DNA of 21,417 nt from a virus. Positions 332-21,417 of this stretch are shown in pieces. The position numbers and the translations under genes were made by a program. The DNA lies in IMG/VR virus record IMGVR_UViG_3300037993_000067, positions 1 through 21,417 of that record; one strand, given 5' to 3'. How positions within the stretch are numbered: the first letter of the stretch is position 1; each line of letters begins with the position of its first letter. Under the pieces are notes generated by a model. That model ran no database searches. It had not been told where the DNA came from and worked only from the letters and a program-made list of their open reading frames with translations.

Positions 332-2011
332 ATGATCTCCAGAGAGGCACTTGGCAAACTCTACGGCATGAAGGCCCGCATGAAGATGGAGCGATCGCGC
401 TTTGACATGCGCTGGCGCCAGATCGCGGCCTATATCAATCCATCAACGGCAGACTGGAATGATCTACCTCCGCAGTCCTCGAGTCACGTCCTCGAGGATC
501 TGTCCCAGGTACACGACACGACGGCGATCGAGGACTCAAACACGCTCGCGGATGGCGTGGAGGGGTACGCTTTCTCGCGCGAGGACCCGTGGTTCAAACT
601 CGAGTTTTTGGACGACGAGTTCAACCAGGCAAAGGATTCGAGCTCGTGGCTTAGGGACGTGGAAAAGCATTTGTACAAGCAGATCGCCCGGTCGAATTGG
701 TACGATGAGGCCCGCATCTACGTGAAGGGGGGAGCGGACTATGCGACCTCGGTCATGATTCGGAAGTCGGACTATCGAGAAGGGACACAGACCTATCTGA
801 AGCTCCACTTGAAGCGGTGCTACCTAGACTGGGACAAGAATTTCAACATTGACGTGCTCTTTTACGACTTCTACATGTCGAAGAGTCAGGCGATAGATGC
901 TTTTGGCGAAGAGAATATGCCCGACGAGATTCTCCAGGACACGGACGAGGAGAACGGCCGACAGTGGAAGTTCACGCAGTTCATCTTCCCGCCCGATCGG
1001 TATCCCTCGATCCAAGTCTCCTCGGCGCCGGGGATGACGTACTACTCGTGCGTAGCATCGCAGGACTACCACTCGACGCCGATCGAGGAAGGTTTTTTCG
1101 AGGTCAAGCCCTTCTTTGTGTGGCGGTGGAACCGCTCCGAGGCCGGGGAAATCTGGGGCGTGGACAGCCCTGGGATCATGATGCTTCCGAACGTGCTCCA
1201 GGCCAATTCGACGCGCAAGGACCTGTCGAGGGTTAGTCAGAAGATGGCGCGGCCCTCCATCGCGGCCAGCGAGTCACTCTACGCCCGCATAGACGAGACG
1301 CCGAACGGCAAGACGTGGCTCAGGCCAGGTGAGCAGGTGGTTAAGATCGACGACACGGGAAGCCCCGAGGGGCTCCAGTGGGATCTCGACGACCTTCGCA
1401 AGGCGATCCACAAAGCCTACCACACAGACTTTTTCCTCATGCTCACGCAGCTCGCGGAGCGCGACAAGACCGCGACGGAGGTCAACGGGCTCCAGGGCGA
1501 GAAAGCCGCGATGCTCTCCGCGTTCTTCGGTAGGATATCCAACGATTTCCTCGGCCCGTTCCTGGAGGACTTCTTCCAGTGCGAGCGCAAGGCCGGCCGG
1601 CTTCCTCCTCCTCCGAAGGGACTGCCCGCGAAGGAGATCAAGGTCAAGTACGTCTCCCCGCTCGCACAGCTCCAGCAGCGATTCCATAGCCTCAACGGGC
1701 TCAGGGAGGCCGCGGCTACGATCCTCCAGCTTGCCCCAGTCATTCCGAACATAGTGGACAACTGGGACTGGGACCAGTACACCGAAGAGGTCTCCACGGC
1801 CTACAACGTGGACGGCAAAGTCGCGAGGTCGGAGGCGGACATTGCGAAGATCAGGCAGGCACGCGCGAAGCAGCAACAGCAGGTCCAGCAGATGCAGATG
1901 CAGCAGGCTCAGGCCCAGACGGCCGCCGCGGCCGCGAGTGCCCACCAGGGCATGTCCACGGCTCCAGAGCCGGGTAGTCCCGCAGCTCAGGCGCAGAAGG
2001 TGAATCAGTGA
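332..2011 (+). CDS. Portal / head-to-tail connector protein
   Basis: 559 residues, starting at an ATG behind AGGAGG (322-327). It resembles the podovirus head-to-tail connecting (portal) family to which T7 gp8-type portals belong. This protein forms the dodecameric ring at one capsid vertex through which DNA is packaged and ejected. Supporting features are the N-terminal WRQIAAYINP segment, the DTTAIEDSNTLADGVEG stretch, an ERDKTATEVNG motif in the long-helix region, and YVSPLAQLQQR near the C-terminal clip/crown part. All are the kind of landmarks seen in this family, and the length is normal for it. The last ~55 residues are rich in Gln and Ala (about 1860-1960), probably a flexible or coiled tail. 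It sits directly after the terminase, as expected, and its stop overlaps the next start (GTGA at 2008). Confidence 0.88.
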   Translation: MISREALGKLYGMKARMKMERSRFDMRWRQIAAYINPSTADWNDLPPQSSSHVLEDLSQVHDTTAIEDSNTLADGVEGYAFSREDPWFKLEFLDDEFNQAKDSSSWLRDVEKHLYKQIARSNWYDEARIYVKGGADYATSVMIRKSDYREGTQTYLKLHLKRCYLDWDKNFNIDVLFYDFYMSKSQAIDAFGEENMPDEILQDTDEENGRQWKFTQFIFPPDRYPSIQVSSAPGMTYYSCVASQDYHSTPIEEGFFEVKPFFVWRWNRSEAGEIWGVDSPGIMMLPNVLQANSTRKDLSRVSQKMARPSIAASESLYARIDETPNGKTWLRPGEQVVKIDDTGSPEGLQWDLDDLRKAIHKAYHTDFFLMLTQLAERDKTATEVNGLQGEKAAMLSAFFGRISNDFLGPFLEDFFQCERKAGRLPPPPKGLPAKEIKVKYVSPLAQLQQRFHSLNGLREAAATILQLAPVIPNIVDNWDWDQYTEEVSTAYNVDGKVARSEADIAKIRQARAKQQQQVQQMQMQQAQAQTAAAAASAHQGMSTAPEPGSPAAQAQKVNQ

Positions 2012-6216: not shown

Positions 6217-6927
6217 ATGCCCACCATCAATTACAGCGCTTCGTGGGTTGACGTTGCAAATGACGCTCTGGGTATTCTGGGCCAACCCTTTATTCAGACC
6301 TTCGGCGACACGTCGGCGCAGGCCCTCGCGGCTAATGCCCACTTCGCGAACACGATCGCGGGCGTCCTTCAATCCCACGACTGGCGCTGTCTCGCCGTCA
6401 TGGTCCAATGCCAACTGTGCGCAAATACTCCGGCCTATAAGTGGATGTTCGCCTACCAGCTCCCGAGTGACTTCTTCCGACTCCTCGACCTCGACGTGGG
6501 CGGCGACGATTACGAGATAATGAGCGGGCTTTCGGTCGGAGTCCCCGACTCCCTCGTGGTGATGTCCAACGGCTACGGCGACACGTACAACGCCCTTGGG
6601 GTTCAGACGACAACCGCGCAAATCATCAACCTGGTTTATATCCAGATGCCGCAGGACGCGCAGAGCCTTCCGTACGTGATGAAGAACCTTATCGCGGCAG
6701 AGCTTGCCGTCGCCATGGCGCCTCGACTGGTGGACAACGAGCAGACGATTTCCCGCGCATCGGCCAACGCGCAGCAAGCATGGGCCGATGCCCTGTCCTT
6801 CGATTCGCGGCTCCGCAAGGACCCGAAACCCATGTCGCCCTCCAAAAACGGAGTCTGGAACGACGAGCACCGGCACGGGCTCCCGAACGGGTACAACCCG
6901 GCCAGCTCCTTGGGGATGATAAATTAA
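6217..6927 (+). CDS. Tail tubular protein A / gatekeeper (T7 gp11-like)
   Basis: 236 residues, ATG with GGGGAGG at 6204-6210. The N-terminal VDVANDALGILGQPFIQTFGD, the following helix with ALAANAHFANTIAGVLQSHDW, and a middle KWMFAYQLPSDFFRLLDLD are typical landmarks for gatekeeper proteins of the T7 gp11 / P22 gp4 type. In these, 'LG...I.s..d....a......y....r..Ll..h.W' is followed by '.y.yxLPxDxlrl'. Such proteins form the ring under the portal that keeps DNA in the head and seats the nozzle. Length is slightly above T7 gp11 (about 196). The stop overlaps the nozzle start (TAATG), matching the usual A-then-B order. Confidence 0.8.
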   Translation: MPTINYSASWVDVANDALGILGQPFIQTFGDTSAQALAANAHFANTIAGVLQSHDWRCLAVMVQCQLCANTPAYKWMFAYQLPSDFFRLLDLDVGGDDYEIMSGLSVGVPDSLVVMSNGYGDTYNALGVQTTTAQIINLVYIQMPQDAQSLPYVMKNLIAAELAVAMAPRLVDNEQTISRASANAQQAWADALSFDSRLRKDPKPMSPSKNGVWNDEHRHGLPNGYNPASSLGMIN

Positions 6928-9161
6928 TGCCCGATTTCTTCACGCTCTGCCGGAACAACTTCTCGGCGGGCGAACTGTCCCCGCTCATGCAGGCAGCGGT
7001 CGACAAGCCCTTCTATCCGCAGGGCTGCCAGATCCTCGAGAACATGATCCCGCAGCGAGGAGGGTCCGTCAGGCGAAGGCCGGGGACGTACTACGCCGGA
7101 GCCGCGGCTGGCGGGACGACGGCCTCGAGGCTAATTCGCTGGAAAACCTCGGACGGGTCCAACTGGGTCCTCGAGCTCTCGAACCTCTATGCTTCGGTAT
7201 GGAATGTCTCGACGCACACCAAGATCAGCGGGGTGGCGACTCCCTACGCTCAAGCCGACCTGTTCAACCTCTCGTTCTGCGACGTGAAGTCTTCTCTGTC
7301 GGATGTCTCGGGGACCTCGGGTCATGGGTTATGGATCGCCCACCAGAGTTACCCTCCCGCCTACTTCCAGTTCGACGGGACGACGCTGCACTACGTGGTT
7401 CCGACGCCGAATACGACTTTCCCCTATGGCGGATACACTCCTACTCCTGCGAGCCCGTACACGACCTTCGTCTCAGGGGACGCGAACGCGAATGCCTGGA
7501 ATAACTTCTCCGGGGCAGGGAATTATCCCGCCGTGGTGTCCTTCATCGGCGGCCGGCTCACCTTCTTCTCGACCAAGAACAACGGGAACCTCATGCTCAT
7601 GTCCCGGTCCCCGGACTATATCAACGGGAACGACCGGCTTTTCGACCTCACGACCCTGGCGAGCGGAGCCTCCGCGCAGTCTCCCGATAACGCGATCGCC
7701 AACTTCTATTCGGCCCTCGCGCCGACTCCAGTCCGGTGGGTCGTCTCGCACCTGCGGATGATCGTCGGGACGGACCGGAATATGTGGGCCGACAACGGGC
7801 AGGCCTGCAGCGCGGGAGTTTTCGGCATCCAGACAGCAGGATTCAGCGGGGCGAGCTCCGTTCCCGGCAAGGGCATCGAGAACTACGTCGTCTTCGTCGG
7901 TCACTCAGGGCGCACGCTTTCGAAGATGTACTATCACTTCATGTACGGGTTCTACATCGACGAAGAGCTCACGAAGATGTCGGACCATATCCTCAATTCG
8001 GGCGTCGTCGAGATGGATATCCAGACCTACCCCTTCCCGATCGTCTGGCTCGTGCGGGCGGACGGGGTACTCGTATCCTGCACGCTCGATCTCCAGGGCG
8101 AGCTCCAAGGCGAGGGGAAAGTCGTCGGATGGGCTCGCCATCCGATGTCGGGGAACGTGGCGGCCGTCTGCTGTCCTCAGACCAACGCGGCGGCGGCAGG
8201 AGTCAATACACCATCGAGCGCGGGAAATGACGAGGTGTGGCTATGCGTCAACCGAGGAACCGCACTCGCGCCGGCCTTCGATATCGAATACATGATCTTC
8301 CACGACCTGCAGAACGTCGCGCTTTCCGACCTGCACTACGTGGACTGCGGATCCTACTTCTCGGCCCTGAACGGCCCCACTCCCACAGTCGCGCAGCTCG
8401 CCAACCAAACAGTGGACGCGGTCGGTGACGGGGCGGTACTTCCGCGCGTGACGCTGAATTCGTCAGGTCAATACACGTACAACCGATCAATAAAGCAGCT
8501 CCATATCGGGCTTCCCATGCCCTCAGTCCTCTGCCCGACTCGCCCCGATGTCCCTGGCAGACAGACGGGGAGCACTCAAGGCAAGACCAAGCGGATCACG
8601 AGGGCCGTAGTGCGCGTCTACAATTCGACCCTCGGCAAGATCGGCCGGACGCTTAATCCGTCCGGGGCCGGTTCTTTGCAGCGGGTTATCATTCCCTTTG
8701 TCGGTGGAGTGCCGGGATCTAATGCCTATGAAGCCATCGCGCTTTCGGGTGGTATCCCAGCCTCGGGGACGCAGTACCCGATCACGTTCCCCTATCAGGC
8801 GGTCTCGGACATCGTGGTCACGATTTCGAAGCAGGACTCGACCGATCCCGAGTTCAACCACGTCTATACGCTCATTCCAGGGACGGACTACTTCGTCACG
8901 AATCCAAGCATCAAAGGGACGTTGACCGTCATGGCGAACGTCTCGACCTGGGCCGCGAGCCTCGGGTACACTCCGGATACACTCAACATTTACTACCGGC
9001 CGACTCTGGCGGGGATGGCCGATCCGCTCGTTTCGGGGGATTTCGAGCTGGACCTGGGGGGCTACACGGACACGGACGGGAATATCTACATCGTCCAGGA
9101 CGACCCCATGCCCTTAAACGTGGTCGCGATCATGACTAGGATCGCCCTCGAGGAACCATGA
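6927..9161 (+). CDS. Tail nozzle protein (tail tubular protein B-like)
   Basis: 744 residues. The start is the ATG at 6927 in a TAATG overlap; the frame stays open upstream but only as a shadow of the previous gene. The N-terminus NNFSAGELSPLMQAAVDK, QGCQILENMIPQRGGSVRRRPGT is the hallmark opening of podovirus nozzle/tail proteins, where 'GELSP...R.D...y..g...l.N....p.Gg..rRpGt' is conserved. It forms the tube below the gatekeeper through which DNA and ejection proteins leave. Residues ~614-692 hold a beta-rich stretch (GTQYPITFPYQ, IPGTDYFVTNP, LNIYYRP) that resembles the N-terminal domain of the tail fibre at 20455. This suggests that part of the nozzle carries a fibre-type adaptor fold. 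The stop overlaps the next start (ATGA). Confidence 0.83.
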   Translation: MPDFFTLCRNNFSAGELSPLMQAAVDKPFYPQGCQILENMIPQRGGSVRRRPGTYYAGAAAGGTTASRLIRWKTSDGSNWVLELSNLYASVWNVSTHTKISGVATPYAQADLFNLSFCDVKSSLSDVSGTSGHGLWIAHQSYPPAYFQFDGTTLHYVVPTPNTTFPYGGYTPTPASPYTTFVSGDANANAWNNFSGAGNYPAVVSFIGGRLTFFSTKNNGNLMLMSRSPDYINGNDRLFDLTTLASGASAQSPDNAIANFYSALAPTPVRWVVSHLRMIVGTDRNMWADNGQACSAGVFGIQTAGFSGASSVPGKGIENYVVFVGHSGRTLSKMYYHFMYGFYIDEELTKMSDHILNSGVVEMDIQTYPFPIVWLVRADGVLVSCTLDLQGELQGEGKVVGWARHPMSGNVAAVCCPQTNAAAAGVNTPSSAGNDEVWLCVNRGTALAPAFDIEYMIFHDLQNVALSDLHYVDCGSYFSALNGPTPTVAQLANQTVDAVGDGAVLPRVTLNSSGQYTYNRSIKQLHIGLPMPSVLCPTRPDVPGRQTGSTQGKTKRITRAVVRVYNSTLGKIGRTLNPSGAGSLQRVIIPFVGGVPGSNAYEAIALSGGIPASGTQYPITFPYQAVSDIVVTISKQDSTDPEFNHVYTLIPGTDYFVTNPSIKGTLTVMANVSTWAASLGYTPDTLNIYYRPTLAGMADPLVSGDFELDLGGYTDTDGNIYIVQDDPMPLNVVAIMTRIALEEP

Positions 9162-10201
9162 GCGACACGCCCGAATATGATGCCTGGAACGCGGGCGGGG
9201 CATACCCAACGACGAACGCTGTCAACGCGGAAGGTCAATCTGTCCCTATTGGTGACGTGGGCTACACTGACCCGTCGCTCGACTTCTCGGCCTCGGCCCT
9301 CCAAACTGACGCCACGGCCGCTCAACTTCCCAGCCCGTCTGCTATATCCTCGGCCGCCGCGGGCGCCGCGAGCCTCGCGACTCTCCTTGCAGCCGGTGTA
9401 ACGGCATTCGGGCAAGACCTCGGCATGAGCGAGAACACGGCGGCAGGTGTCGCGGGTGCTCTCCAGGACGCGGGGGAAGGCGCGGCGGCCGGTGCGGAGA
9501 TAGGATCTCTTTTCCCTGGCATTGGAACCTTAATCGGGGCCGGTGTGGGAGCTCTTGCAGGCGGAATTCTCGGATTCTTCACGGGCGAATCGGCCGACGC
9601 GGCAAAGCAGAAGCAGCAGCAGATCGCCGAGGACAAGGCGCTCATCTCCGAGACAACCACCCTCCAGCAGGCCAATGCGGAAATGGTCAACGCCAAGACG
9701 CAAATCGGCATGTATGGGACGGCGCTCCAGGTCCTACCCACGGAAGAGGCAGGGCAGGAAGCCACGGCGAAGCAGACCGGCGAGGCGAACTATGCGAGCC
9801 TCCTTGGCAACTTCGGCAGCGTCAGCGCTCATGCGGGCCAGATGGGCACCGAGGCGGTCAAGGGGAGCTCTGCCGGCGCCGCCGAGGTCGCGCCCGCTAT
9901 CGAGCTCGGGCAGTTCACGGGAGGCTCGATCGCCTCGGGTGACATTGATAAGTTCAACGTGGACGAGGCGGACAGGGACTTCAAGAGCGGAGTCGCGCAG
10001 CCGGTCAACGGCGGGACCTTCGCCGCGGGAATGGCCTCGGTACAGAACCAGGCTTACCAGAATTGGACCTCGTACAACAACCAGGTGAGCATGTATCAGA
10101 ACAGCGTTATCCCGACCTTGCAGTCGACGATCGCCACGGCGACCTCGCAGATCAACCAGCTTACGGCGGCCGGCGCTTCGGTGACCGGTCCGGTGGTGTA
10201 G
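9158..10201 (+). CDS. Putative ejection protein with glycine zipper (347 aa)
   Basis: ATG overlapping the nozzle stop, with CGAGGA just upstream. The protein is Ala/Gly/Ser-rich. Residues ~108-143 (GAAAGAEIGSLFPGIGTLIG then AGVGALAGGILGFF) form a strong glycine-zipper hydrophobic hairpin able to insert into a membrane. An Ala-rich helix lies at ~62-84. The rest is polar, with Gln/Asn-rich helices at ~145-200 and at the C-terminus (MASVQNQAYQNWTSYN). Size, position after the nozzle and before two larger internal proteins, and the zipper suggest an analogue of T7 gp14, the first internal core protein to insert into the outer membrane during DNA injection. That role is inferred; sequence similarity to gp14 itself was not seen. 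Confidence 0.65.
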   Translation: MSDTPEYDAWNAGGAYPTTNAVNAEGQSVPIGDVGYTDPSLDFSASALQTDATAAQLPSPSAISSAAAGAASLATLLAAGVTAFGQDLGMSENTAAGVAGALQDAGEGAAAGAEIGSLFPGIGTLIGAGVGALAGGILGFFTGESADAAKQKQQQIAEDKALISETTTLQQANAEMVNAKTQIGMYGTALQVLPTEEAGQEATAKQTGEANYASLLGNFGSVSAHAGQMGTEAVKGSSAGAAEVAPAIELGQFTGGSIASGDIDKFNVDEADRDFKSGVAQPVNGGTFAAGMASVQNQAYQNWTSYNNQVSMYQNSVIPTLQSTIATATSQINQLTAAGASVTGPVV

Positions 10202-10202
10202 T

Positions 10203-12683
10203 ATGGACGTACCCCAGGTAAACGACCGGCCAGTCCTTCAGGCCTTCCAGGCTGAACGCGAGGCGCAAAGCGGGATGTTCGTCCCCCAGGAGATCGAGGC
10301 GCAGAACCAAGCCGCCTACGCTCAGGACCAAAATAGGGCCTTCGCCTCGGCGGCTGGCCTCGTCAAGGGAATCGGGGAAATGTGGGCACAGGGGCAGATG
10401 GAGGCGGCGAAGGTCGCCTCTTACACCGCTTCGCAGAAGCTCAACGACCAGTGGATGTCCGACGCGGCTTCGGGGAAGATTCAGCCCTCCGTCGCCGATG
10501 ATGGGACAGTCACGGTCAAGCCTACAGATGAATGGACAGCGATGCGGGACAACTTCCTCTCGCAGGCGAAGGACAAGTACCAGGCTCCCGGAGCTCAGAG
10601 CTTCCTTCAATCCTCCATCCTCGAGAACGCGAACCGGGTCCAGACGGACGGTCTCCGCGCGGTCTACGACAAGTACCAGAAGGACTACTACGCGAACGCC
10701 TCCCTCGGCCTCCAGATGACGACGGACGCCCTCGCCAAGGGAAACAGCTTCGAGCCTGAGCTCGACGGCCAGGGCCGGACGGTGGACTACAAGAAGCTCG
10801 ACCTCTCGACCGAGACGGACATCATTCGACAGAAAGTCATGGATATAAAAGGCCTGGACGGCCCCGCTCAGAACATCCTCATTCAGCAGCAGAAGAACAC
10901 CGTATTCGCGGGCATGGTCGACAAGGAAGCCCAGCGGCTCGCGGCGATCGATCCGGCCCAGGCAAAGAGCTTCATCGAGGCCGCGAACGACAAGTACCGG
11001 CCCGACGACGTAACGAAACTGGACGACCAGGCCCTGAAGCAGCTCCTCGACAAGTCCAGCGTCATCGAGCAGGCGACGAAAGAGAAGATCACCAACGACG
11101 CACAGACACAGATCGAGAAAATTCAGAAGGGGGCGAACTCTGGATGGGCCGACGCCTTCACAAAGATTCAGGACCAGAACTCGAAACAATACCCTGGTTA
11201 CAAGGATGAGGACGACAAGATCGCGGTAAAATTCGCGCAGGCGGCTGGCGCGACCTGGTTGAACGTCATAGGCCAGGACCTCACAAACAAGAACGAGGAC
11301 GCATTAAAAGAGGACATGGTCAACCTTAAGAATGACTTCGCCCATGATTTCAACGTCAATAACGCAGCATTCGCCGATCAGAAAAAATCTATCCAAGCGT
11401 TCGCAGATGCGCAATTAGGCCGGGACGAGGAGCAGGACGCGAAGGAACAGAAGGCGCGAGAGACCGCAGAGGCGAAGGGTTGGTACGATATTGTTGACGC
11501 TAATTCTCGCAATTATGAAGGGCTGCAAAATATCCGGGATAAGATCACTCATTCGAGCGATCCTAATCTCACAAGCGAATCGAAGCAGGCCCTCATCAAG
11601 ACAATCGACGAGTACAGCAAGGAACCAAGCCCCGATCTTGCCAAGAATATATCTTTCCTTAAAGAGCAAGTCGCGCAGGGAGCAATTCCTCAAGGAGCTT
11701 TAGAAAAATACCTCATACGTGAATCCGGGAGAGCAACCAATTTCAATAACCCAGTTTACATGAAACAGCTTTCCGATGGTTTAGATGAATGGAATAAAGG
11801 ACTTGAAGGGCAATTTAAGGCAAACTCGGAGATACTCAAGCAAGCGGCCTTGGATTTCGTTGGAGTGAAGGATATCAAGGAACTCAAGGATCCGGCTAAA
11901 CTCGCGGCCTATGCTCGGTGTCTCGATGATCTGACAAAAGCATCCATCGCTAATTTCAACGCCAGTAAGACAAACGACCCGGAAGCGTCTCAAATGATCG
12001 CTATAGATACGACGGCGAAGATGGTTTCTCGCGGGTTCTCGAATCCGAAGAATCCGGAAGCTCCTCCGATGGCTGGTAGCGAAGATGCAGCGCTGGCGAA
12101 ATTTGTACAGGGTGAAAAGGCAGGCTCGACCACGGTTGACGCCTCCGGGAATGAATCCAGCCTCAACAGTGGGGAATTGAAGAACGGTATAGCGCTTTCC
12201 GAGAAGCGAATCAAGACGGCGATCCCTGGGGTCGAGATTATTGGCAACTCCTTGGAAAAAGGAGATCAGTATGGACTCACGAATACAGGAGAGCGTATTT
12301 TTAAGGCTCAGGATGGGAGCCAGTACAAGGTCAGCTCGGATGATGGAAAGACTACCACTGTAATGGCGAGGTATAACCAAAGCGAGACATCGGGCGGAAA
12401 GACTACGCGAGTATTAGGACCGTGGGTCAAGGTCACTGAGAAGACCCAGGCACAGAAAGACCATGCCGCTGCCACGGTGATCGCCACCGCGACCGAAAAC
12501 CAGGACATAAATCGAATCTTGACCAAGGAGCAGAACGACAGGAAACAAACGGAGTACCAGGCAAACCAAGAAGTTGCCTCAAATGTCATGAGTGACCCGA
12601 GCAAGTTCGACGCGGCCTATAAGGGATGGGATGGGGAAGGCAAGGTAGCCGATTATCTGATGAAGTGGGAAAAGGCTCATTAA
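10203..12683 (+). CDS. Putative internal virion / ejection protein (826 aa)
   Basis: Starts one base after the previous stop, with a weak ribosome site (GGTGG), so probably coupled. The product is almost entirely charged and helical, rich in Lys, Asp, Gln and Ala, with no signal peptide or clear membrane helix. It contains long coiled-coil-like stretches (for example KDKYQAPGAQSFLQSSILEN and EEQDAKEQKARETAEAKG) and a more beta-like part near residues 650-760 (KRIKTAIPGVEIIGNSLEKG onward). Place and size match the middle core protein of podoviruses (T7 gp15 analogue), which would form the inner core and, after ejection, part of the trans-envelope channel. No lysozyme or transglycosylase motif is visible. 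Base composition drops clearly from about 11,290 to 12,600 (one line at 11,701 is ~38% GC against ~63% at 10,681), suggesting a mosaic join. Confidence 0.65.
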   Translation: MDVPQVNDRPVLQAFQAEREAQSGMFVPQEIEAQNQAAYAQDQNRAFASAAGLVKGIGEMWAQGQMEAAKVASYTASQKLNDQWMSDAASGKIQPSVADDGTVTVKPTDEWTAMRDNFLSQAKDKYQAPGAQSFLQSSILENANRVQTDGLRAVYDKYQKDYYANASLGLQMTTDALAKGNSFEPELDGQGRTVDYKKLDLSTETDIIRQKVMDIKGLDGPAQNILIQQQKNTVFAGMVDKEAQRLAAIDPAQAKSFIEAANDKYRPDDVTKLDDQALKQLLDKSSVIEQATKEKITNDAQTQIEKIQKGANSGWADAFTKIQDQNSKQYPGYKDEDDKIAVKFAQAAGATWLNVIGQDLTNKNEDALKEDMVNLKNDFAHDFNVNNAAFADQKKSIQAFADAQLGRDEEQDAKEQKARETAEAKGWYDIVDANSRNYEGLQNIRDKITHSSDPNLTSESKQALIKTIDEYSKEPSPDLAKNISFLKEQVAQGAIPQGALEKYLIRESGRATNFNNPVYMKQLSDGLDEWNKGLEGQFKANSEILKQAALDFVGVKDIKELKDPAKLAAYARCLDDLTKASIANFNASKTNDPEASQMIAIDTTAKMVSRGFSNPKNPEAPPMAGSEDAALAKFVQGEKAGSTTVDASGNESSLNSGELKNGIALSEKRIKTAIPGVEIIGNSLEKGDQYGLTNTGERIFKAQDGSQYKVSSDDGKTTTVMARYNQSETSGGKTTRVLGPWVKVTEKTQAQKDHAAATVIATATENQDINRILTKEQNDRKQTEYQANQEVASNVMSDPSKFDAAYKGWDGEGKVADYLMKWEKAH

Positions 12684-15600
12684 TGGACCTCTGGGACCAG
12701 AGCACGACGGCCGACGACGCGGGTAAGCCCGCCGCGATGGCGCAACTCACCAGCGAGCCCACGGGGGAAAATAAACCAGCCCTCCCCGCAGCGCCGGGCC
12801 CGCCCGAGCAAAAGCCCGAGGCTCCTCCCAAGACAGCCGCACCGACCGCGCCCACACCACAGGCACCTCAAGGCGGGGCCGAGGAACAAGTCAGTAAAAT
12901 CCTCGCTCCTATAGCGAAACAAGTCTCGGACATTGGGCTCGTCCCTGTATCCTCTGATGAGTACGACTCGATTATGCGAGCGGCTAAAAACTCTCCCGAT
13001 CCGCAGACTACGATTGCCAAGGCTTCCCAGGCGATGATGTACCAGAAGCTCCTTGGGATACCCGCCGACAAGGCGATGGATTATCTCCCGGCTCTCAATA
13101 AAGCCTTCGTCGGCGACCCGATGCCTTCCCAGGAGAACTTCGGGAACACGGTTTCTAAGGCTCTGGATAACGGGTCGTACTTCCTCCAGGCGGGTAGGAT
13201 CGGCGGACTCCTCGCGAACGATCCCCATAACCCCGAACTCAGAGCAGCGGCCGACTACGTCAATAAGAAGCTCGAGGAGACCGCTCCCTACGCTCAGAAG
13301 AACATATTCACCCAGGCCCTCCAGATGGCGCCATTCATGATCGACGGCCTCGCGACCTCGGCACTCGGAGGCGTCGGTGGTATCGCCTCGATGGTTACGG
13401 CCGTGGCGAACGTCGCGCAGATGAGCGCAACCATGCGTGGGGCCGACTTCCTCCGAATCCAACGGGACACTCAGGCGGCTCTCGTCAAGAAAGGGGTCGA
13501 TCCGGAGGAAGCCTACCAGAAGGCGACGGATGTCGCCGGGCCGATCTCCCAGACCTCGGGCATCATCGAAGGAAGCCTGGGCGAGCTCCTCGGCGGATTT
13601 CCGGCCCTCCGGGGCCTCATGGGCAAGGAAGCGGCCCCGATCACGTCCAAGATCATCGACGCGATTATGCAGGACGGCGTCACGTCCAGGGTAGGCCAGA
13701 AGCTCGCTTTACAGGGCGGTTTACATTACGCAGGTTCAGCGCTCGAGTCCGGCGCCAATATGGCGGCGTTTGAACTCACGCAGCGGCTCTCGGATAAGAC
13801 GGCGGCCGTGCTCTCGGACTCTGGGGTTCCACAGCCCACGGCCGCGGCGATCGCCAAGGATGTAGGGGGAGCCTTTGGAAACGGTATCCTCATCGGCCTC
13901 ATTACGGGCGTACCAGCCCTTGCGAAGGCTGAGATAGGCGCCGTGCGAGCGGGAAGCGCCGAGGCGGCAACACGGCTCACGGAAGCGAAGAACCTCGCCA
14001 CCTTGGCGAAGACGTTCGACCAGGACGGATTCAAAGCGGCGGTAGACCGACTCCCGGACCTCGTCTCTTTCAAAGGAGTGGATCCAAAAGACAAAGCCGC
14101 GCAGCTCGACCAGATATGGAAAACTTCCCACGCATCCGAGGCGCCAGAAGCCACAGGCAAGAGCGGAGAGGCCCCGGAGGGTAAAACTACCACCCCGGCC
14201 GCTGGCGAGGCTCCTGAGCCCGCCACGGGCTCAACGGCGCCTCTCGCTCGAGACGAAGGCGGGAAACTGTACGCGAACGATGAGCCTGTTGTCCTTCGGC
14301 GTGATGGATCATCCATGATCATGGAGGATCGGATAGGCGATCCGACCAGTCAAAAGGCCTATTCCCTGCACCAGTTTACGGTCGACGACGAGGCCAAGAC
14401 TGTCACGGTCGACTCGATGCGCTTCAAGCAGGGGACCGGGGACGCAGAGCGCGAGGAGATGGCCCGGCAGTACGTGGACCGGCTCCAGCAGCGATACCCC
14501 GGATTCGATATCAAATGGGAGCCCTCGGACCCGAAGCTGGCCGCCATCCGGGACAAGATCATCGCAGACAATCCCCAGGGCCTCGAGAAGGGACTGAACT
14601 ACTATCCGGACAAGGAAGCGGCCTCGACTCCCTTCAAGGCCGACGAGTTTAGGCAGAAGGCCCAGGCGGCTTTCGGGCTCAAGGACAACGAGGCGGACGC
14701 GGCGCTATCCCTCGTCCACGCCTTCGCGAAGGGGGAAGGGACCGACGCCGAGACCTGGCTACGGACGCACCTTGACCCGAGGATGATCGCCAATGCGGGC
14801 GAAAAGCAGATCGCCCAGGGGAACAAAGCCGGAACGTCTTTCACGGATTCCGAGGGGAAACCCATCGCGCCCGAGAAGGTCTCCCAAGTACAGGGCCATG
14901 CGAAGGCGCTCATCATCGCTACCAAGGCCGGAGACTTTTCTTCCATCGCCCATGAGCTCTTTCACGTCGCCCAGCTCACCACGAAAGACACAGAGATACG
15001 CAAGGCCATTTCTGACTATTTTGGTATACCTTACGATAAGCTCGGGCGAGACGCCATGGAGCACCTGGCCGACAACTTTGAGAGGTACTTAACCTCCGGC
15101 CGGGCTGACGCTCATCTCAAGGGCGCGTTCGGGAAGATCGCCGATATCATGGCCCGGTACGTCTCCGAGTTCGTCCGGCGCCTGAAGGGGAACCCAAAGC
15201 TCGAGGCCATCTTCGACAAGATGCTCGGCTCGGATACTCCCTTCGGAGAAGCCCTACGAAAGGCCGACGATCAGATCAAGGGTCGAGAGGTCAAGGAAGT
15301 CGAGCCGGGAAGCATGGAGGACAAGTACAACAAGATCAAAGGTACCCAGGGAGGGCGAGTTCTCGATGTCGATATCGCGCGTGAATTGGTCCCCGGCTAC
15401 AAGCCCGAGGAGGCCGGAAAGGTTCACGAAGAAGCCAGCGCCATAATAAAGCAGCGATACGCGGAACTTCTCCAGGGACCCGTCGCCAAGGGGAAAGAGC
15501 CTTTTGTCCTTTTCACCGCAGGCGGCAGCGGGGCGGGAAAGACAACTGCGATCAGAACGACCCTTGACGGACTCAGGGGAAAAGCCGATATTATATACGA

Positions 15601-18600
15601 AGGGATGATGAGCAAGGTTGAGTCTTCTGTAAAGAAGATCGACCAAGCATTGGAGAGTGGACGTGATGTTAATATTGCCTATGTTCATCGGAGTCCTGTT
15701 GACGCCTGGCATTCTGTGTTGGACCGCGCCGAAGAAACAGGCCGAACGGTTCCCCTCGATGCTCACGCCGAAGCACATAGTAACGTTCAGACCACGATTG
15801 AGAAGCTCCAAGGTATTTACAAAGACACTCCACAAGTCATTTTCCACGCAATCGATAACAACCAGGGACCAGGAAAAGCGAGGGAAGTTCCTTTCGAAAC
15901 TCTCCCCAAGATTGAGACCCAAAATCTCAAGGAGCAACTACATGAAGGACTTACCGAAAGATACCGAGCCGGCAGTATCTCTGAAAAGACGTACCGCGGA
16001 TCAGTACCCACCGCCCCTAATGAGCCCAGAACGCCGGAAGGAAATAACGGAGCAACTTGGGAAGGAGCTGGCGGACAACCTGAATCGCAACGTCCTGAAG
16101 TCTCGCAAGTAGAGGAACCCGTGCGCGGGGTTCCCGCGCGCGAGGGCGAGAAGATTGCCAAAGAAGCGACGACGGTCCAGCACGAGCTCGCCAATGAGCT
16201 CGGGGCCCTGAACGGCGCGCTGAAGCTCGGGAAGGGCGATCGGGCGAAAATCCTCGAGCAGTACGGATTCAAGGCCGGCGACGAGCCGGCGATCCGCGCG
16301 AGGGTCGCGGAGCTCGAGGGGAAGGTCCAGGCCTGGGACAACTGGTCGACCGACCCCGCGAAGTACCAGGAGCTCCGTCGACGGGCAGGGCTCCCCTTCA
16401 AGCAGGACGTTATCGACGCCGCTTCCCAGACCGAGGCGGAGACAGGCCGGCCCGAGGAGCCCATGCTCTTCCAGCACGACGACGACCTCGAGGAAGCCCG
16501 GCAGTACAAGAGCCCCGAGGAATGGATGAAGGCCACGGGCGCAAAGGACGAGGACGCCGACTTCTACAAAAAGACATGGGAGGAAGCCACCCAGAAGCCC
16601 CTTGTCTCAAGCGCTCAGGCCCGCGTAGACTTCGCCAACGAGGTCAAAGCCGACAATCACGCCCTCGGGCACGAGCTCCTCAAGGCGATCGGCGAGAACT
16701 TGCTGAACGGGAAGATCGCAGACGCGCACGCTAAGGGCGGCCGTGAGCTGTCCGTTATTGACGCCTACGCCCTCGATAAGGTATCGGGCCGGCAGATCAC
16801 CGAAGCGAAGTGGATGGTCATTGACGCATGGATCGAGAAGAACCCTGACAAGTACCGCACGCTCACCGCGAAGCTCCTTGGCCGCGACGATATAACTCGG
16901 CAGATGGGCGCGGAGGGCGACGGGACGGCGCCTCGGGAGCCCGTCAGGATCAAAGGCTCCAACTCCGACCAGGACGCCCAAGTCGCGGGAGCGGCACTTC
17001 AACGCCTTGTCGACAAGCTCGAGCCAGAAGCAGCGGATAAACTCTCCTCGGAGAAGTGGACCAAGGCCTCGGCTCAGGCTTATGCCGAGTCTACTCGGAA
17101 GGATATCGCCCGGCTGCAAGCCAAGGTCGACAAGTCTCAGGCAGAGGTCCAGCAGCTCAAGGACCTCATGAAGGCGCAGCGGGCGGGGCAGCTTGCCAGC
17201 GAGCAACGGACGGCCTACGAGAAGACTGTCAGGCGGAACCCCGGCCCGACGATCGACTACGCCCACGCGCAGATCGTCAGGGCGGTGATGGACTTCCTGG
17301 ACCCCATCGACCAGGGCAAGCGGGTCATGACGGACGAGAAAAACGCCGTCTTCGCGAAGTACGACGAACTCGCGAAGCAGTTCTTGACCCCGGAGCAGAT
17401 CGATAAGATCAAGACAGCACCTCTTAATGAGTGGAGCACGAAGGACCTGAAGGACCTCGCGGGCAGCCTCCGGGAACTTCGGCAGGCCGGCAGGGACGAA
17501 TACTTCGCCAAGGCCTCGGAGCGGAAGGCTCGCCTCGATGATCAGGCGATGGAGGTTCGGCAGACTCTCGTCGCGAACCATCCGGCAGACGGACGGGCGC
17601 CGGTAGGCTCGAAGGAATACCAGGACGCCAACGGCGGGAAGCTCGGGCGAATGCTTCGGAGCTTCGACCTTCCACAGACGAACATCCTCCGAGAAGCGAG
17701 GACGATAGACGGGAAAGAAGACGGGCCCGTCCAGCGGATCGTGATGAAGGAAGTAGAGGCGGACCGGGCCTCGGATACAATGTCTCGCGCGAGGAAGGCG
17801 GCGCTTGCTGAGGCTTTGAAGGGACAGGACCTCGACGTTAAGCACTTCTACGACAAGAAGGGCGAGGTGCAGATCATGGGTAAAACCTTCAACCGGGCGA
17901 CACTCATGAGCCTGTACGTCGGGATGCAGGACTCCTTCTCCCGCGGGCATATCGTCTACGGGAATTTCATGTCCCACGTAGACCGTGAAGCGATGGCCGG
18001 GCATCCTGAGCTCGAGGAAGCCGGGGACCGGATAACTTCGGCGATCAGGCAGGCGACGGACACACTTACGGCGAAGGAAAAAGCTGTCGCGGACGCCTAC
18101 CTCGCCAACATGAACGAGCACCGGGGCCGGTTCTTTAACGCGGAAGTGGAACTTGACAACAAGAGTCCTGAGAATGTTCAGGCCTATTTCCCCTGTTATC
18201 TCAACGAGCCAGAGGACCCGAGGGGATTCAAGGCCGATATTATGGGGCTGTTCGGTCTCAAGAAGCAGACGAATAAGGGCGCGACGATCAACCGTATCGA
18301 CATCGCACCGGAAAACCAGAAGTCTATCAACCTCGACTTCTTCAGCGTCTACGAGAAGGCCATTGAAAGCCAAGAGCGGTTCATTGCGATGGCACCTTTC
18401 CTCCGGGACTGGAACGCGGTGTTCGGCTCCTCGAATCGGTCAACCATAGTGCGGGAGGAAATCGGGAACCGGCTCGGCGCGGAGCACGTCCAGTACCTCG
18501 ACGACTGGGCTGGCTGCGTAGCCAACCCAAAAGCATGGGACCGGATACAGGACATGGAGAAGGGCATGAGCACGGCGGCGCGATACCTCCGCGGCGGCCT

Positions 18601-19591
18601 CACGACGGCATACTTGGGCTTCCGGTCGGCAATGGGAGTCCAGCACATCGCGACCTATTGGATGCCCTACATCCCCCACGCAGGCGGCGAGCTCCTTCAC
18701 CAGATGCTCGTCCACTTGAACCCTGTCACGGCGCTGAAAGATTGGGCGTGGATCAAGGAACAGAGCGCTGTCGTCAGGAACATCAAGCCGGGGATAGCGG
18801 TTCACGACCTCGCGAAGATGGACTTCGGAAACGCGGCCATGAACAAGATCCGTGACTTATCGATGCTGTTCGAGCAGGGAAGCCAGAACTACGCGGTCCT
18901 GAATGGCTGGAAGGCCATGTATGACAAGACCATCGCAGCGGGTCAAGCCGACCTTGGATCAGGGAAGATCACGGGAGATCAACTCCATATTCAGGCAGTG
19001 AACAAAGCCGACGAGATCACGCTAAAGGTCCAACCGACCTGGCAGCCCGAGTACATCGCTCCTGCCCTCCGATCTAAGAACGGGATGATGAAAATCATTA
19101 CGCAGTTCATGGAGCCGATGAACGTGGTGTACAACCAGTTGCGGCATGATGTACCCGATGCGATCGCGGACGGGCATCTTATGAAGGCTGCGGGGATAGT
19201 CACAAGCCTCATGGCGGTCGGTGCGGTCTATGGGCTCATCCGGGCGCCGCAAGAGGACGACGACGACGCGACTCAGAAGATGAAGGATGTTTTCGCGGGG
19301 ATAGCGAAAGAAGGGATAGACTCTATCCTCTTCGTCGGACCTATTCTCGATGGACTTGTCGACAGCGCAATCACGGGGCATACTCTATTTCAGCAGAAGA
19401 CGGAAGCCTTCCCTGCGGCGGACCAGATGATAAACGCGCTGCAGAAGATAGAGTCAGGGAATGGCGGCGGGGTGGCGCTCATGGAGGCCTTCGCTGTAGC
19501 TCTGGGGCTTCCGGTATCCGCGGTGAAGGACTACTACCGCGCGTTTGGCGGGGACCTTGGGGCATTGATAGGACGACCGGCTAAAAAGTAA
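12683..19591 (+). CDS. Giant polyvalent ejection protein: protease + zeta kinase
   Basis: 2302 residues; ATG at 12683 in a TAATG overlap. Layout by residue: 15-66 Pro/Ala-rich; 70-480 helical with Gly/Ala-rich hydrophobic parts; 483-525 acidic Pro linker; 530-645 mixed alpha/beta domain; 735-850 zincin-like metalloprotease (HELFH at 757-761, probable third ligand E793 in MEHLADNFERYL); 878-1106 zeta-toxin-like P-loop kinase (GGSGAGKTT at 947-955, YVHRSPVDAW, GRTVPLDAH, IDNNQGPGKA); 1107-1144 odd linker overlapping another ORF; 1145-1650 helical, coiled coil near 1472-1506; 1650-2302 C-terminal part like the LPD38-type domain of large phage polyvalent proteins, with a hydrophobic helix near 2168-2190. 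Position and size match the T7 gp16 slot, so it is probably ejected into the host. The protease could process virion or host proteins; the kinase could modify UDP-sugars or nucleotides. Domain names are from motifs, not searches. Confidence 0.75.
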   Translation: MDLWDQSTTADDAGKPAAMAQLTSEPTGENKPALPAAPGPPEQKPEAPPKTAAPTAPTPQAPQGGAEEQVSKILAPIAKQVSDIGLVPVSSDEYDSIMRAAKNSPDPQTTIAKASQAMMYQKLLGIPADKAMDYLPALNKAFVGDPMPSQENFGNTVSKALDNGSYFLQAGRIGGLLANDPHNPELRAAADYVNKKLEETAPYAQKNIFTQALQMAPFMIDGLATSALGGVGGIASMVTAVANVAQMSATMRGADFLRIQRDTQAALVKKGVDPEEAYQKATDVAGPISQTSGIIEGSLGELLGGFPALRGLMGKEAAPITSKIIDAIMQDGVTSRVGQKLALQGGLHYAGSALESGANMAAFELTQRLSDKTAAVLSDSGVPQPTAAAIAKDVGGAFGNGILIGLITGVPALAKAEIGAVRAGSAEAATRLTEAKNLATLAKTFDQDGFKAAVDRLPDLVSFKGVDPKDKAAQLDQIWKTSHASEAPEATGKSGEAPEGKTTTPAAGEAPEPATGSTAPLARDEGGKLYANDEPVVLRRDGSSMIMEDRIGDPTSQKAYSLHQFTVDDEAKTVTVDSMRFKQGTGDAEREEMARQYVDRLQQRYPGFDIKWEPSDPKLAAIRDKIIADNPQGLEKGLNYYPDKEAASTPFKADEFRQKAQAAFGLKDNEADAALSLVHAFAKGEGTDAETWLRTHLDPRMIANAGEKQIAQGNKAGTSFTDSEGKPIAPEKVSQVQGHAKALIIATKAGDFSSIAHELFHVAQLTTKDTEIRKAISDYFGIPYDKLGRDAMEHLADNFERYLTSGRADAHLKGAFGKIADIMARYVSEFVRRLKGNPKLEAIFDKMLGSDTPFGEALRKADDQIKGREVKEVEPGSMEDKYNKIKGTQGGRVLDVDIARELVPGYKPEEAGKVHEEASAIIKQRYAELLQGPVAKGKEPFVLFTAGGSGAGKTTAIRTTLDGLRGKADIIYEGMMSKVESSVKKIDQALESGRDVNIAYVHRSPVDAWHSVLDRAEETGRTVPLDAHAEAHSNVQTTIEKLQGIYKDTPQVIFHAIDNNQGPGKAREVPFETLPKIETQNLKEQLHEGLTERYRAGSISEKTYRGSVPTAPNEPRTPEGNNGATWEGAGGQPESQRPEVSQVEEPVRGVPAREGEKIAKEATTVQHELANELGALNGALKLGKGDRAKILEQYGFKAGDEPAIRARVAELEGKVQAWDNWSTDPAKYQELRRRAGLPFKQDVIDAASQTEAETGRPEEPMLFQHDDDLEEARQYKSPEEWMKATGAKDEDADFYKKTWEEATQKPLVSSAQARVDFANEVKADNHALGHELLKAIGENLLNGKIADAHAKGGRELSVIDAYALDKVSGRQITEAKWMVIDAWIEKNPDKYRTLTAKLLGRDDITRQMGAEGDGTAPREPVRIKGSNSDQDAQVAGAALQRLVDKLEPEAADKLSSEKWTKASAQAYAESTRKDIARLQAKVDKSQAEVQQLKDLMKAQRAGQLASEQRTAYEKTVRRNPGPTIDYAHAQIVRAVMDFLDPIDQGKRVMTDEKNAVFAKYDELAKQFLTPEQIDKIKTAPLNEWSTKDLKDLAGSLRELRQAGRDEYFAKASERKARLDDQAMEVRQTLVANHPADGRAPVGSKEYQDANGGKLGRMLRSFDLPQTNILREARTIDGKEDGPVQRIVMKEVEADRASDTMSRARKAALAEALKGQDLDVKHFYDKKGEVQIMGKTFNRATLMSLYVGMQDSFSRGHIVYGNFMSHVDREAMAGHPELEEAGDRITSAIRQATDTLTAKEKAVADAYLANMNEHRGRFFNAEVELDNKSPENVQAYFPCYLNEPEDPRGFKADIMGLFGLKKQTNKGATINRIDIAPENQKSINLDFFSVYEKAIESQERFIAMAPFLRDWNAVFGSSNRSTIVREEIGNRLGAEHVQYLDDWAGCVANPKAWDRIQDMEKGMSTAARYLRGGLTTAYLGFRSAMGVQHIATYWMPYIPHAGGELLHQMLVHLNPVTALKDWAWIKEQSAVVRNIKPGIAVHDLAKMDFGNAAMNKIRDLSMLFEQGSQNYAVLNGWKAMYDKTIAAGQADLGSGKITGDQLHIQAVNKADEITLKVQPTWQPEYIAPALRSKNGMMKIITQFMEPMNVVYNQLRHDVPDAIADGHLMKAAGIVTSLMAVGAVYGLIRAPQEDDDDATQKMKDVFAGIAKEGIDSILFVGPILDGLVDSAITGHTLFQQKTEAFPAADQMINALQKIESGNGGGVALMEAFAVALGLPVSAVKDYYRAFGGDLGALIGRPAKK
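15314..16000 (+). other. Captured zeta-toxin-like kinase segment
   Basis: Residues 878-1106 of the giant protein read like a complete stand-alone zeta-family kinase. They open with an internal Met and MEDKYNKIKGTQGGRVLDVD, continue with Walker A (K953), YVHR, GRTVP and DNNQG motifs, and end with AGSISEKTYRG. From about 15,590 to 15,960 the GC content is ~42-48% by line against >60% in flanks, and codon use is less GC3-biased. The position where I recall a catalytic Asp (YDG) carries Glu973 (YEG), so activity is uncertain. Acquisition from a bacterial or plasmid locus is inferred. Confidence 0.6.
15942..16112 (+). CDS. Overprinted 56-aa ORF in +1 frame
   Basis: ATG at 15942 with AAGGAG at 15929-15934 (7-base spacing) and TAG at 16110-16112, in the +1 frame inside the giant gene. 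The product starts MKDLPKDTEPAVSLKRR, continues with PPPLMSPERRKEI and ends in a well-formed amphipathic helix (TEQLGKELADNLNRN) and a basic tip. It looks more protein-like than the phage frame over the same bases, which from 16,001 reads as disordered Pro/Gly/Glu sequence. A hairpin follows 2 bases after the stop. My reading is a small partner gene, perhaps an antitoxin, that came with the zeta kinase. It may be a fossil or may still be translated. Family unknown. Confidence 0.5.
   Translation: MKDLPKDTEPAVSLKRRTADQYPPPLMSPERRKEITEQLGKELADNLNRNVLKSRK
16114..16134 (+). other. 7-bp hairpin right after overprinted ORF
   Basis: GGAACCC (16114-16120), 7-base loop, GGGTTCC (16128-16134), starting 2 bases after the TAG of the +1 frame ORF. 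No T-run follows (CGCGCG instead). It may be the remnant of a terminator from a captured cassette and marks the point where the sequence returns to strongly GC-rich phage composition. Confidence 0.45.
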
Positions 19592-19619: not shown

Positions 19620-20453
19620 ATGGACCTTTTAAACGCTTTCTCTGGCGGCGTTGTACCCCTCATGGGGCGACAGGCCGCGCTCGGGGCCTCGTGGAACATC
19701 TTGAACGGGCAGATTGCGGCGCCGGTGGACATTGACTGGCACATCCAATTCCCCGCAGGAACTCCGGCGAAGCTCGACCTAACCTCGGATAGCACGAACG
19801 ACGTGGACGCTACGGGCTCGGGAGCCTGGAGAGTCCTCATTGTCGGCTGCGATAAGAACTACAAGATTATCTCGGAAGTGCTCGCATTGAACGGGCAGAC
19901 GATCGTTACCTCGGCGCTCGCGTATCAGCGGGTGTTCGGGATACAGGTCGTCAAGGTCAACACCACGACCGTTAATGGGATGAATCTCGGGAACATCTGG
20001 GCGGTCAAGACCGGGACAGGCGGATCGTACACCGCGGGTAATCCGGGAACCAAGACCGGCCTCGTGTGCGTTGTCACTGCTGGAATGCCGACAGGATACT
20101 CCGGTATCTGGACGGTCCCGGCCTGTGAAATAGGGCTGAGTGGTAACGCGGTGAACGCCTGGAGGCTCTTCAACTACACGGCGGGCGTCAGGGCGAACGC
20201 GGGGACCTTCGGGATATTCTCGATGGACCCGAGCGACGGGAACAACGGGGCCATGACCATGGACCTCGCGATGGAGCTTTCGACGGGCTCACCGGTCAAC
20301 TCCGAAATCGACGTGGACATCGCCTCGGACTGGACGCGCCACGGGGGAACGATCTACCAGTGGAGCAAGCCGGGGACGGACATACAGCTCCGGGGGCTGG
20401 CCTCGGCGGCAGCCACCTATATGAGCGTCCAGGCGCTCATCCGAAGGATGTAA
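19620..20453 (+). CDS. Virion surface / structural protein (277 aa)
   Basis: ATG with AAGGGGAG (19609-19616). The product is beta-rich and Gly/Thr/Asn-rich, with few charges. The segment LTSDSTNDVDATGSGAWRVL, GCDKNYKIISEVLALNGQT, QRVFGIQVVKVNTTTVNGMN, LGNIWAVKTGTGG follows a pattern I recall from marine and environmental phage structural proteins ('s.d..D...GtGar.v.v.GlD.ny..i.Etv.LnG.t.v....yxrv....v...G...n.G.I'). Copies of this family are usually found with tail or decoration genes. Its place between the giant ejection protein and the tail fibre suggests a tail-spike accessory, fibre adaptor or surface fibre. There is no signal peptide. The exact role is unknown. Confidence 0.6.
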   Translation: MDLLNAFSGGVVPLMGRQAALGASWNILNGQIAAPVDIDWHIQFPAGTPAKLDLTSDSTNDVDATGSGAWRVLIVGCDKNYKIISEVLALNGQTIVTSALAYQRVFGIQVVKVNTTTVNGMNLGNIWAVKTGTGGSYTAGNPGTKTGLVCVVTAGMPTGYSGIWTVPACEIGLSGNAVNAWRLFNYTAGVRANAGTFGIFSMDPSDGNNGAMTMDLAMELSTGSPVNSEIDVDIASDWTRHGGTIYQWSKPGTDIQLRGLASAAATYMSVQALIRRM

Positions 20454-20454
20454 C

Positions 20455-21417
20455 ATGATTACCTCGGCGGTCGTCAAGAATAGTTGGGTTCTCACGCCCG
20501 GTAGCCCGCCGTCGATAGGGGCTCAGTACGCGATAACGATCCCGTACTGGTCAACCGGGGACCTGGTCGTCCAGCTCATCGATGCGGGGGGCACAAAGCA
20601 GACCCTCACGCTCGGGACGGACTACACCTTGACGACGCCCTCCGGGGTTCCTCCGCAGACCGAGGCCGGGGGGATTCTGACGGTACAGAGCAACTGGACG
20701 TACTCGCCCGCAGACTGGGCAACTCTCTCGGTCTACCGTGCGCAATCGGTCGTTCAGCAGACGAACTTCCGCAACGGCGATTCTTTCGACATGCCGACGC
20801 TGGAAACTGAATTCGACAAGCTCGTGGGCATGATCCAGGAGACCAACGCGGGGACCACGACAGGATCGGGGGGAAGCTACTTCCCGACCGGCAGCGCGGC
20901 GACCGTGCTACAAGGGCTCGCGGCGAGCCTTCTCGCGGGACAGATAGCCTTCGGGCTCCTGCCTTCCGGGACCTCTTCGCCGCTCGCGGTGACATGGCAG
21001 CAGCTCCTAGCAGGAACCCTTGGTACAAACATCAAGGGACTCATCGCGGCAGACCTTGGCTCCGGGTGGGTTTCACCGCTCGAGGCGGCGCTTACGTCAG
21101 GATGGGCGAGCGCGTTCGCGACGGCCTTCAATACGGCATGGTCCTCGATCATAGGTGCGGCTCCGGGGTCAGGATGGGCGGCGGCCCTCGCGGCGACGTT
21201 CATCCCGAGCCCTATCCCTCCTGTCGGCTTCGTCTATTTCCAAGGACCGAACGACGCGACTCCTGCTTCGATGTGGTCAACCGGGACCTGGACCGATGTA
21301 TCAAGCGAAGAAGCCAACATGACCCGAAGGGTGTACGGAAGCCTTGCGGGCGCATGGGTTTCAGGGACACCGGCAGTTCTTACGGTCGGCGTCTCGGGCG
21401 GCGTCCCGACGATCACC
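20455..21417 (+). CDS. Tail fibre, N-terminal part (open at window end)
   Basis: ATG at 20455, one base after the previous stop, with GAAGGA at 20443-20448 (6-base spacing); the frame stays open for 321 codons to the edge, so the gene is truncated by the window. Residues ~22-96 (GAQYAITIPYW, LGTDYTLTTP, ATLSVYRAQ) followed by TNFRNGDSFDMPTLETEFDK and LVGMIQE form the usual N-terminal attachment domain of podovirus fibres, comparable in layout to T7 gp17. An Ala/Trp-rich imperfect repeat (GSGWVSPLEAAL, TSGWASAFATAF, GSGWAAALAATF) spans ~201-260. Near residue 265, PPVGFVYFQGPNDATPASMW with GTWTDVSSEEANMTR resembles the phage tail-collar segment. The receptor-binding end is not in the window. 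Confidence 0.75.
   Translation, partial: MITSAVVKNSWVLTPGSPPSIGAQYAITIPYWSTGDLVVQLIDAGGTKQTLTLGTDYTLTTPSGVPPQTEAGGILTVQSNWTYSPADWATLSVYRAQSVVQQTNFRNGDSFDMPTLETEFDKLVGMIQETNAGTTTGSGGSYFPTGSAATVLQGLAASLLAGQIAFGLLPSGTSSPLAVTWQQLLAGTLGTNIKGLIAADLGSGWVSPLEAALTSGWASAFATAFNTAWSSIIGAAPGSGWAAALAATFIPSPIPPVGFVYFQGPNDATPASMWSTGTWTDVSSEEANMTRRVYGSLAGAWVSGTPAVLTVGVSGGVPTIT

Follow-up and report, generated by a model that had tools for sequence, protein, structure and literature searches.

A tail-fibre-type N-terminal domain inserted into the T7 gp12-type nozzle of an environmental podophage lineage

How does the nozzle of a podophage come to carry a segment that reads like the N-terminus of a tail fibre, and what might such a segment do in a tail channel protein? 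The question is raised by the virus record IMGVR_UViG_3300037993_000067, positions 1 to 21,417 of which (the whole stretch analysed, on one strand, hereafter the window) encode a T7 gp12-type nozzle and, at their far end, a tail fibre. Here we present evidence that the nozzle contains an insertion related to the N-terminal domain of T7 gp17-type fibres, that the insertion belongs to one lineage, and that it may brace the fibre trimer at the nozzle platform. We assign a probability of about 0.45 to the complete explanation, which joins homology, insertion within a lineage, origin from the phage's own fibre and a bracing role.

An initial annotation of the window had pointed to nozzle residues 614-692, which correspond exactly to positions 8766-9002 with the nozzle open reading frame (ORF) starting at ATG 6927, and had described an order of motifs shared with the fibre N-terminus. 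This order is borne out for GTQYPITFPY in the nozzle and GAQYAITIPY in the fibre, DIVV and DLVV, GTDYFVTNPS and GTDYTLTTPS, and GTLTV and GILTV, but not for the closing L..YR, which is shifted by one residue (LNIYYR versus LSVYR) and is lost (LNIYFQ) in the nozzle of a sister contig, L001. The residues named do lie in a foreign segment, the true extent of which is larger, at approximately 105 residues (Table 1).

The proposed relationship between this segment and the fibre N-terminus is upheld by profile searches and pairwise comparisons alike. BLASTP aligns the nozzle segment with the phage's own fibre at 38% identity over 71 columns (E = 1e-6), and the Smith-Waterman score of the pair, 99, lies 12.7 standard deviations (SD) above the mean of 5000 shuffles (mean 29.0, SD 5.5, maximum 61). 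Among 109 segments of 105 amino acids taken from the phage's own proteins, the insert-fibre pair obtains the top two scores (102 and 96), followed by scores of 75 and 71, both between two internal virion proteins. The hhalign comparison suggested at the outset yields a significant match: the two nozzle inserts match the window fibre with a probability of 93 (E = 2.9e-7, 47% identity over 58 columns) and 44 fibre N-termini of other phages with a probability of 90.8 (E = 1.2e-6), and in reverse a fibre profile recovers the same residues of the full nozzle pair more weakly (probability 32, E = 5e-4). When a fibre profile from which all window proteins were excluded is run over 233 nozzle ORFs, the window nozzle ranks first (E = 4e-4) and the sister nozzle second (E = 2e-3), with the next at 0.017. 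The insert profile, run over 18,456 ORFs from 230 loci, matches, besides its two parent nozzles, the window fibre alone (E = 0.0012). Among PDB sequences, the best two matches of the insert are the N-termini of tail fibre 9lna (E = 0.0018) and tailspike 9vvr (E = 0.034), and a tblastn search of phage records with the nozzle C-terminal part returns mostly T7-like tail fibres, each match weak (about 41% identity over 53-61 residues). We regard homology between the insert and the T7 gp17-type fibre N-terminal domain as established with high confidence.

The predicted fold points in the same direction. The insert was modelled alone with AlphaFold from the two nozzle sequences, with no fibre sequences in the input, so that fibres could not steer the model, which comprises seven strands and one short helix at a predicted local distance difference test (pLDDT) score of 63. 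A second-look structural comparison with VIA-align ranks the fibre N-terminus of Carin-1 (8ck1_B) as the best chain (Z 5.9, 2.8 Å, 72 residues), and five of the six top matches are fibre N-termini, from Carin-1, T7, LME-1, del7.3K2R1 and P-SCSP1u, the matching part being model residues 8-101; a different predicted fold, named initially as the outcome that would refute the likeness, was not obtained. Foldseek against BFVD gave no match at E <= 0.001, although the top-ranked entries reach probabilities close to 1 and a number of them carry the name tail fibre protein.

In motifs, strand pattern, best fold match and size (about 80-95 residues), the insert resembles the T7 gp17-type N-terminal domain (PF03906, Phage_T7_tail; 7EY9, 8DSP, 8I4M and 8CK1 chain B). 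Unlike that domain, it lies inside a 744-residue nozzle and not at the N-terminus of a trimeric fibre, and it lacks the conserved helix that follows the jelly-roll. The region of the anchor-helix motif, TQ.tD...dpFpAe..E.alDkLt...Q, is present in the window fibre and absent from the nozzle, where, in alignments and model, a platform strand comes directly after the insert. Neither the window nozzle nor the window fibre has any Pfam match at E <= 1, and of the 44 other fibres no more than 19 reach E <= 0.01 against PF03906 itself. Searches with back-translated patterns and tblastn found no relatives of the window fibre. In two other loci, L115 and L163, fibre-type N-terminal domains begin at ORF residues 219 and 102, respectively, in frames extended upstream (putative starts).

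The remainder of the nozzle has the T7 gp12-type fold from end to end (6R21, 8CK1 chain A, 9EFK). A whole-nozzle AlphaFold model (pLDDT 75.5) matches the Carin-1 nozzle 8ck1_A with Z 39.6 over 568 residues, LME-1 with 34.7 and T7 gp12 with 27.6, and the propeller, fibre dock and platform of this nozzle type are present along the full length, as the match to 8ck1_A and PHROG 376 indicate. In this model the insert sits in a hairpin between two long platform strands, placed at low confidence, where other nozzles of the type have a short turn. It is located inside the platform, whereas the fibre dock of gp12-type nozzles lies between propeller and platform. Elsewhere in the protein, the stretch that corresponds to the tip domain of other nozzles (residues 162-191, window 7410-7499) has 66 residues between anchors against a median of 117 in 218 nozzles, and is poorly predicted in the model.

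Other nozzle homologues lack the segment. Six of them, including T7 gp12, align on both flanks without it, and the insert is present in only two of the 169 nozzles that span the site, those of the window (104 residues over the model length) and of the sister contig (106 residues), the loops of the remainder ranging from -10 to +19 residues. The sister, with 90% identity overall, is the only close relative covering the site, and it was the sole return of a scan with the portal protein. No further insert-bearing nozzle was found in five scans of viral contigs with the nozzle or the insert, in a single scan of genome contigs from bacteria and archaea, or by tblastn of phage records; the insert profile had no match in four bacterial genomes with nozzle relatives, a result that shows little. 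The insert-bearing nozzle is known, then, from two fragmentary contigs, in both of which the reading frame and length of the insert are preserved, and the insertion is almost certainly specific to one small group of environmental phages. A more distant branch of the nozzle lineage (L165 and L169, IMG/VR 3300013130_001624 and 3300013133_000508; 31-48% identity) is represented by contigs that stop before the site. No description of a nozzle of this kind was found in the literature searched, coverage of which was incomplete.

A fibre-type jelly-roll has been captured into the nozzle of this lineage, in which it arose or spread. Among all fibres, the best partner of the window insert is the fibre of its own phage (Smith-Waterman score 102, next 67), which is also the best partner of the sister insert (86, next 66), and a tree of the jelly-roll region places both inserts in one clade with the window fibre (support 98/74). 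DNA similarity between insert and fibre amounts to a 12-base match, which excludes a recent duplication at the DNA level and indicates that the event is old. The closeness to the own fibre and the clade lead us to favour, as the somewhat likelier though not demonstrated origin, capture from the lineage's own fibre. Foreign composition was also considered and rejected, GC content overall and at third codon positions (GC3) being alike in insert, nozzle and fibre.

This closeness fits the initial suggestion of a domain duplicated or exchanged within the lineage. The wider suggestion that the segment explains how this kind of tail acquired a fibre is not supported, since the fibre N-terminal domain is encoded just as well by relatives whose nozzles have no insert (71 such domains were collected). 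The insert is therefore an optional add-on of the nozzle, probably one that contacts the fibre, and not a general mode of fibre attachment.

What this contact might be is suggested by solved T7-like tails, in which adaptor docks, nozzle dock and platform hold the fibre with no domain of the insert type, the fibre trimer of T7 and of cyanophage P-SCSP1u being placed between the adaptor and nozzle docks (PMC6702177, PMC10575957). In P-SCSP1u, the fibre helices bind the adaptor and the nozzle platform, two jelly-rolls bind the adaptor docks and the third (F3) makes no hydrogen bond to the nozzle (PMC10575957). Since it has no anchor helix, the insert would be a partner or brace for the fibre rather than its anchor. 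By sequence, and with support from the predicted fold, the insertion is a T7 gp17-type jelly-roll minus the anchor helix, set into a hairpin of the platform, the C-terminal domain of a T7 gp12-type nozzle. We propose that the platform hairpins would display six such covalently held jelly-rolls around the collar at which adaptor, nozzle and fibre come together, giving every fibre trimer one of them if T7 stoichiometry applies. Each jelly-roll would pack on those at the N-termini of the adjacent fibre trimer, the likeliest contact being the subunit equivalent to F3, and the extra contact may strengthen or angle the fibre and couple it to the nozzle. A docking role appears plausible; bracing of the trimer at the platform, read from the geometry, is put forward tentatively. 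The stretch of the adaptor that aligns with the fibre dock of T7 gp11 is retained, if anything in a longer form (alignment with Skadi-1, BcepC6B, T7 gp11 and others), which rules out compensation by the insert for a missing adaptor dock. It is conceivable, if doubtful, that the nozzle jelly-roll and the three fibre jelly-rolls form a mixed assembly that wires the tail tube to each fibre and senses receptor-binding movement; if true, a fibre domain copied into the tail channel protein would have produced a new fibre-to-gate linkage.

Several points weigh against the explanation as a whole. The jelly-roll fold of the insert is supported but not proven, because generic beta-sandwiches rank close behind fibre N-termini in the second-look comparison and plain Foldseek gave no significant PDB match; a Z near 5-6 is not decisive by itself, and the confidence of the insert model is modest and falls further within the whole nozzle. 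The grouping with the own fibre is short of full support in the tree, and the sister contig ends ahead of its fibre gene. The contact between insert and fibre is drawn purely from geometry. Amino-acid change in the insert exceeds that in the nozzle core (p 1.6e-8), but the flanks change equally fast (12 of 49 residues, against 26 of 106 in the insert), so that the rate of change does not single out a fibre partner and fast evolution of the insert is discarded as proof of one.

Beta-sandwich decorations are common on phage tails. The insert could be a general surface decoration or an adhesin that binds the cell surface or a glycan with no fibre contact, and the nozzle of SU10 is indeed decorated by Ig-like domains at another site (PMC9509320); we consider this rather unlikely for an insert whose nearest relative is the phage's own fibre and whose best sequence and second-look structure matches are fibre N-termini, not adhesins. 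Less likely still is a second docking point, through jelly-roll self-association, for another protein, be it an accessory fibre or the 277-amino-acid protein encoded upstream of the fibre. Branching domains do allow podophages to carry a second receptor-binding protein (PMC12692247), and this PHROG 8198 protein is encoded between ejection proteins and fibre, but the 21 kb window holds no second protein with a fibre-type N-terminus, the record stopping within the fibre. That the insert is a functionless by-product, captured by chance and tolerated at an exposed hairpin, would agree with the fast change of insert and flanks and with there being only two known contigs; it is very improbable in view of the ratio of non-synonymous to synonymous substitution rates (dN/dS), which is 0.15 for the insert and 0.04 for the nozzle core and, with an insert dS of about 1.1, indicates clear purifying selection, and of the frame and length kept in both nozzles. 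Convergence of short beta-rich sequences, for which the shortness of the segment, the moderate scores of each method and the lack of Pfam matches might speak, can be set aside almost entirely, as shuffles, hhalign, the first two ranks among 233 nozzles, the PDB sequence search and the fold match independently concur.

Table 1. Features of the window and of the two proteins compared
Feature	Position	Strand	Basis
Portal	332-2011		PHROG-supported
Adaptor, T7 gp11 / tail tubular protein A type	6217..6927	+	PHROG 394, E 1.6e-26
Nozzle, T7 gp12 / tail tubular protein B type, 744 aa	6927..9161	+	PHROG 376 'tail protein', E 1.3e-92
Platform beta strand ahead of insertion, nozzle residues 554-567	8586..8627	+	Whole-nozzle AlphaFold model
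Insertion, nozzle residues 592-697, ~105 residues	8700..9017	+	Alignments, loop lengths
Fibre-N-terminus-like jelly-roll in insertion, nozzle residues 599-692	8721..9002	+	hhalign to own fibre and 44 other fibres; insert-model fold match
Platform beta strand after insertion, nozzle residues 702-715	9030..9071	+	Whole-nozzle AlphaFold model; aligned block in all homologues
Internal virion proteins	9158-19591		
277-aa protein	19620-20453		PHROG 8198, E 1.3e-5
Tail fibre, runs off window end	20455..21417	+	PHROG 1640 and other tail-fibre families at residues 22-133
Fibre N-terminal jelly-roll, residues 22-98, partner of nozzle insertion	20518..20748	+	hhalign to 44-fibre profile, probability 98, E 4e-14; BLASTP to nozzle
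Fibre anchor-helix region, residues 99-131, missing from nozzle insertion	20749..20847	+	Alignment to fibre family

The genes of the window follow a podophage-type order (portal, further head genes, adaptor, nozzle, internal virion proteins, 277-amino-acid protein, fibre), with PHROG families backing the portal, capsid, adaptor, nozzle and fibre assignments. T7 gp12-type nozzles form a hexamer on a dodecameric adaptor, and in the window the adaptor gene immediately precedes that of the nozzle. The 277-amino-acid protein may be an additional component of the tail or of an accessory fibre. One internal virion protein of 2321 amino acids (window 12626-19591), probably ejected, contains a Zeta_toxin-type P-loop kinase segment at residues ~985-1065 (PF06414, E 5.4e-16).

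Added domains are known from other podophage tails. The nozzle of the Kuravirus SU10 likewise has extra beta domains, together with a loop that docks the short fibres, and its domains touch fibres; those of SU10 are immunoglobulin (Ig)-like and inserted between blades 2 and 3 of the propeller, whereas the one described here is a fibre-type jelly-roll in the platform (PMC9509320). The T4gp10-like branching domains of Klebsiella podophage tailspikes give the tail a further attachment point, but they are a different domain and are carried by the first tailspike, not the nozzle (PMC12692247). For annotation, the present case warns that a fibre-type N-terminal domain is not always the sign of a fibre. 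For the unsettled question of how T7-like phages relay the binding of a fibre to the host to their closed tail channel, a nozzle carrying a piece of fibre constitutes a natural experiment, one in which an entire domain is accommodated at a platform hairpin and parts can pass between nozzle and fibre.
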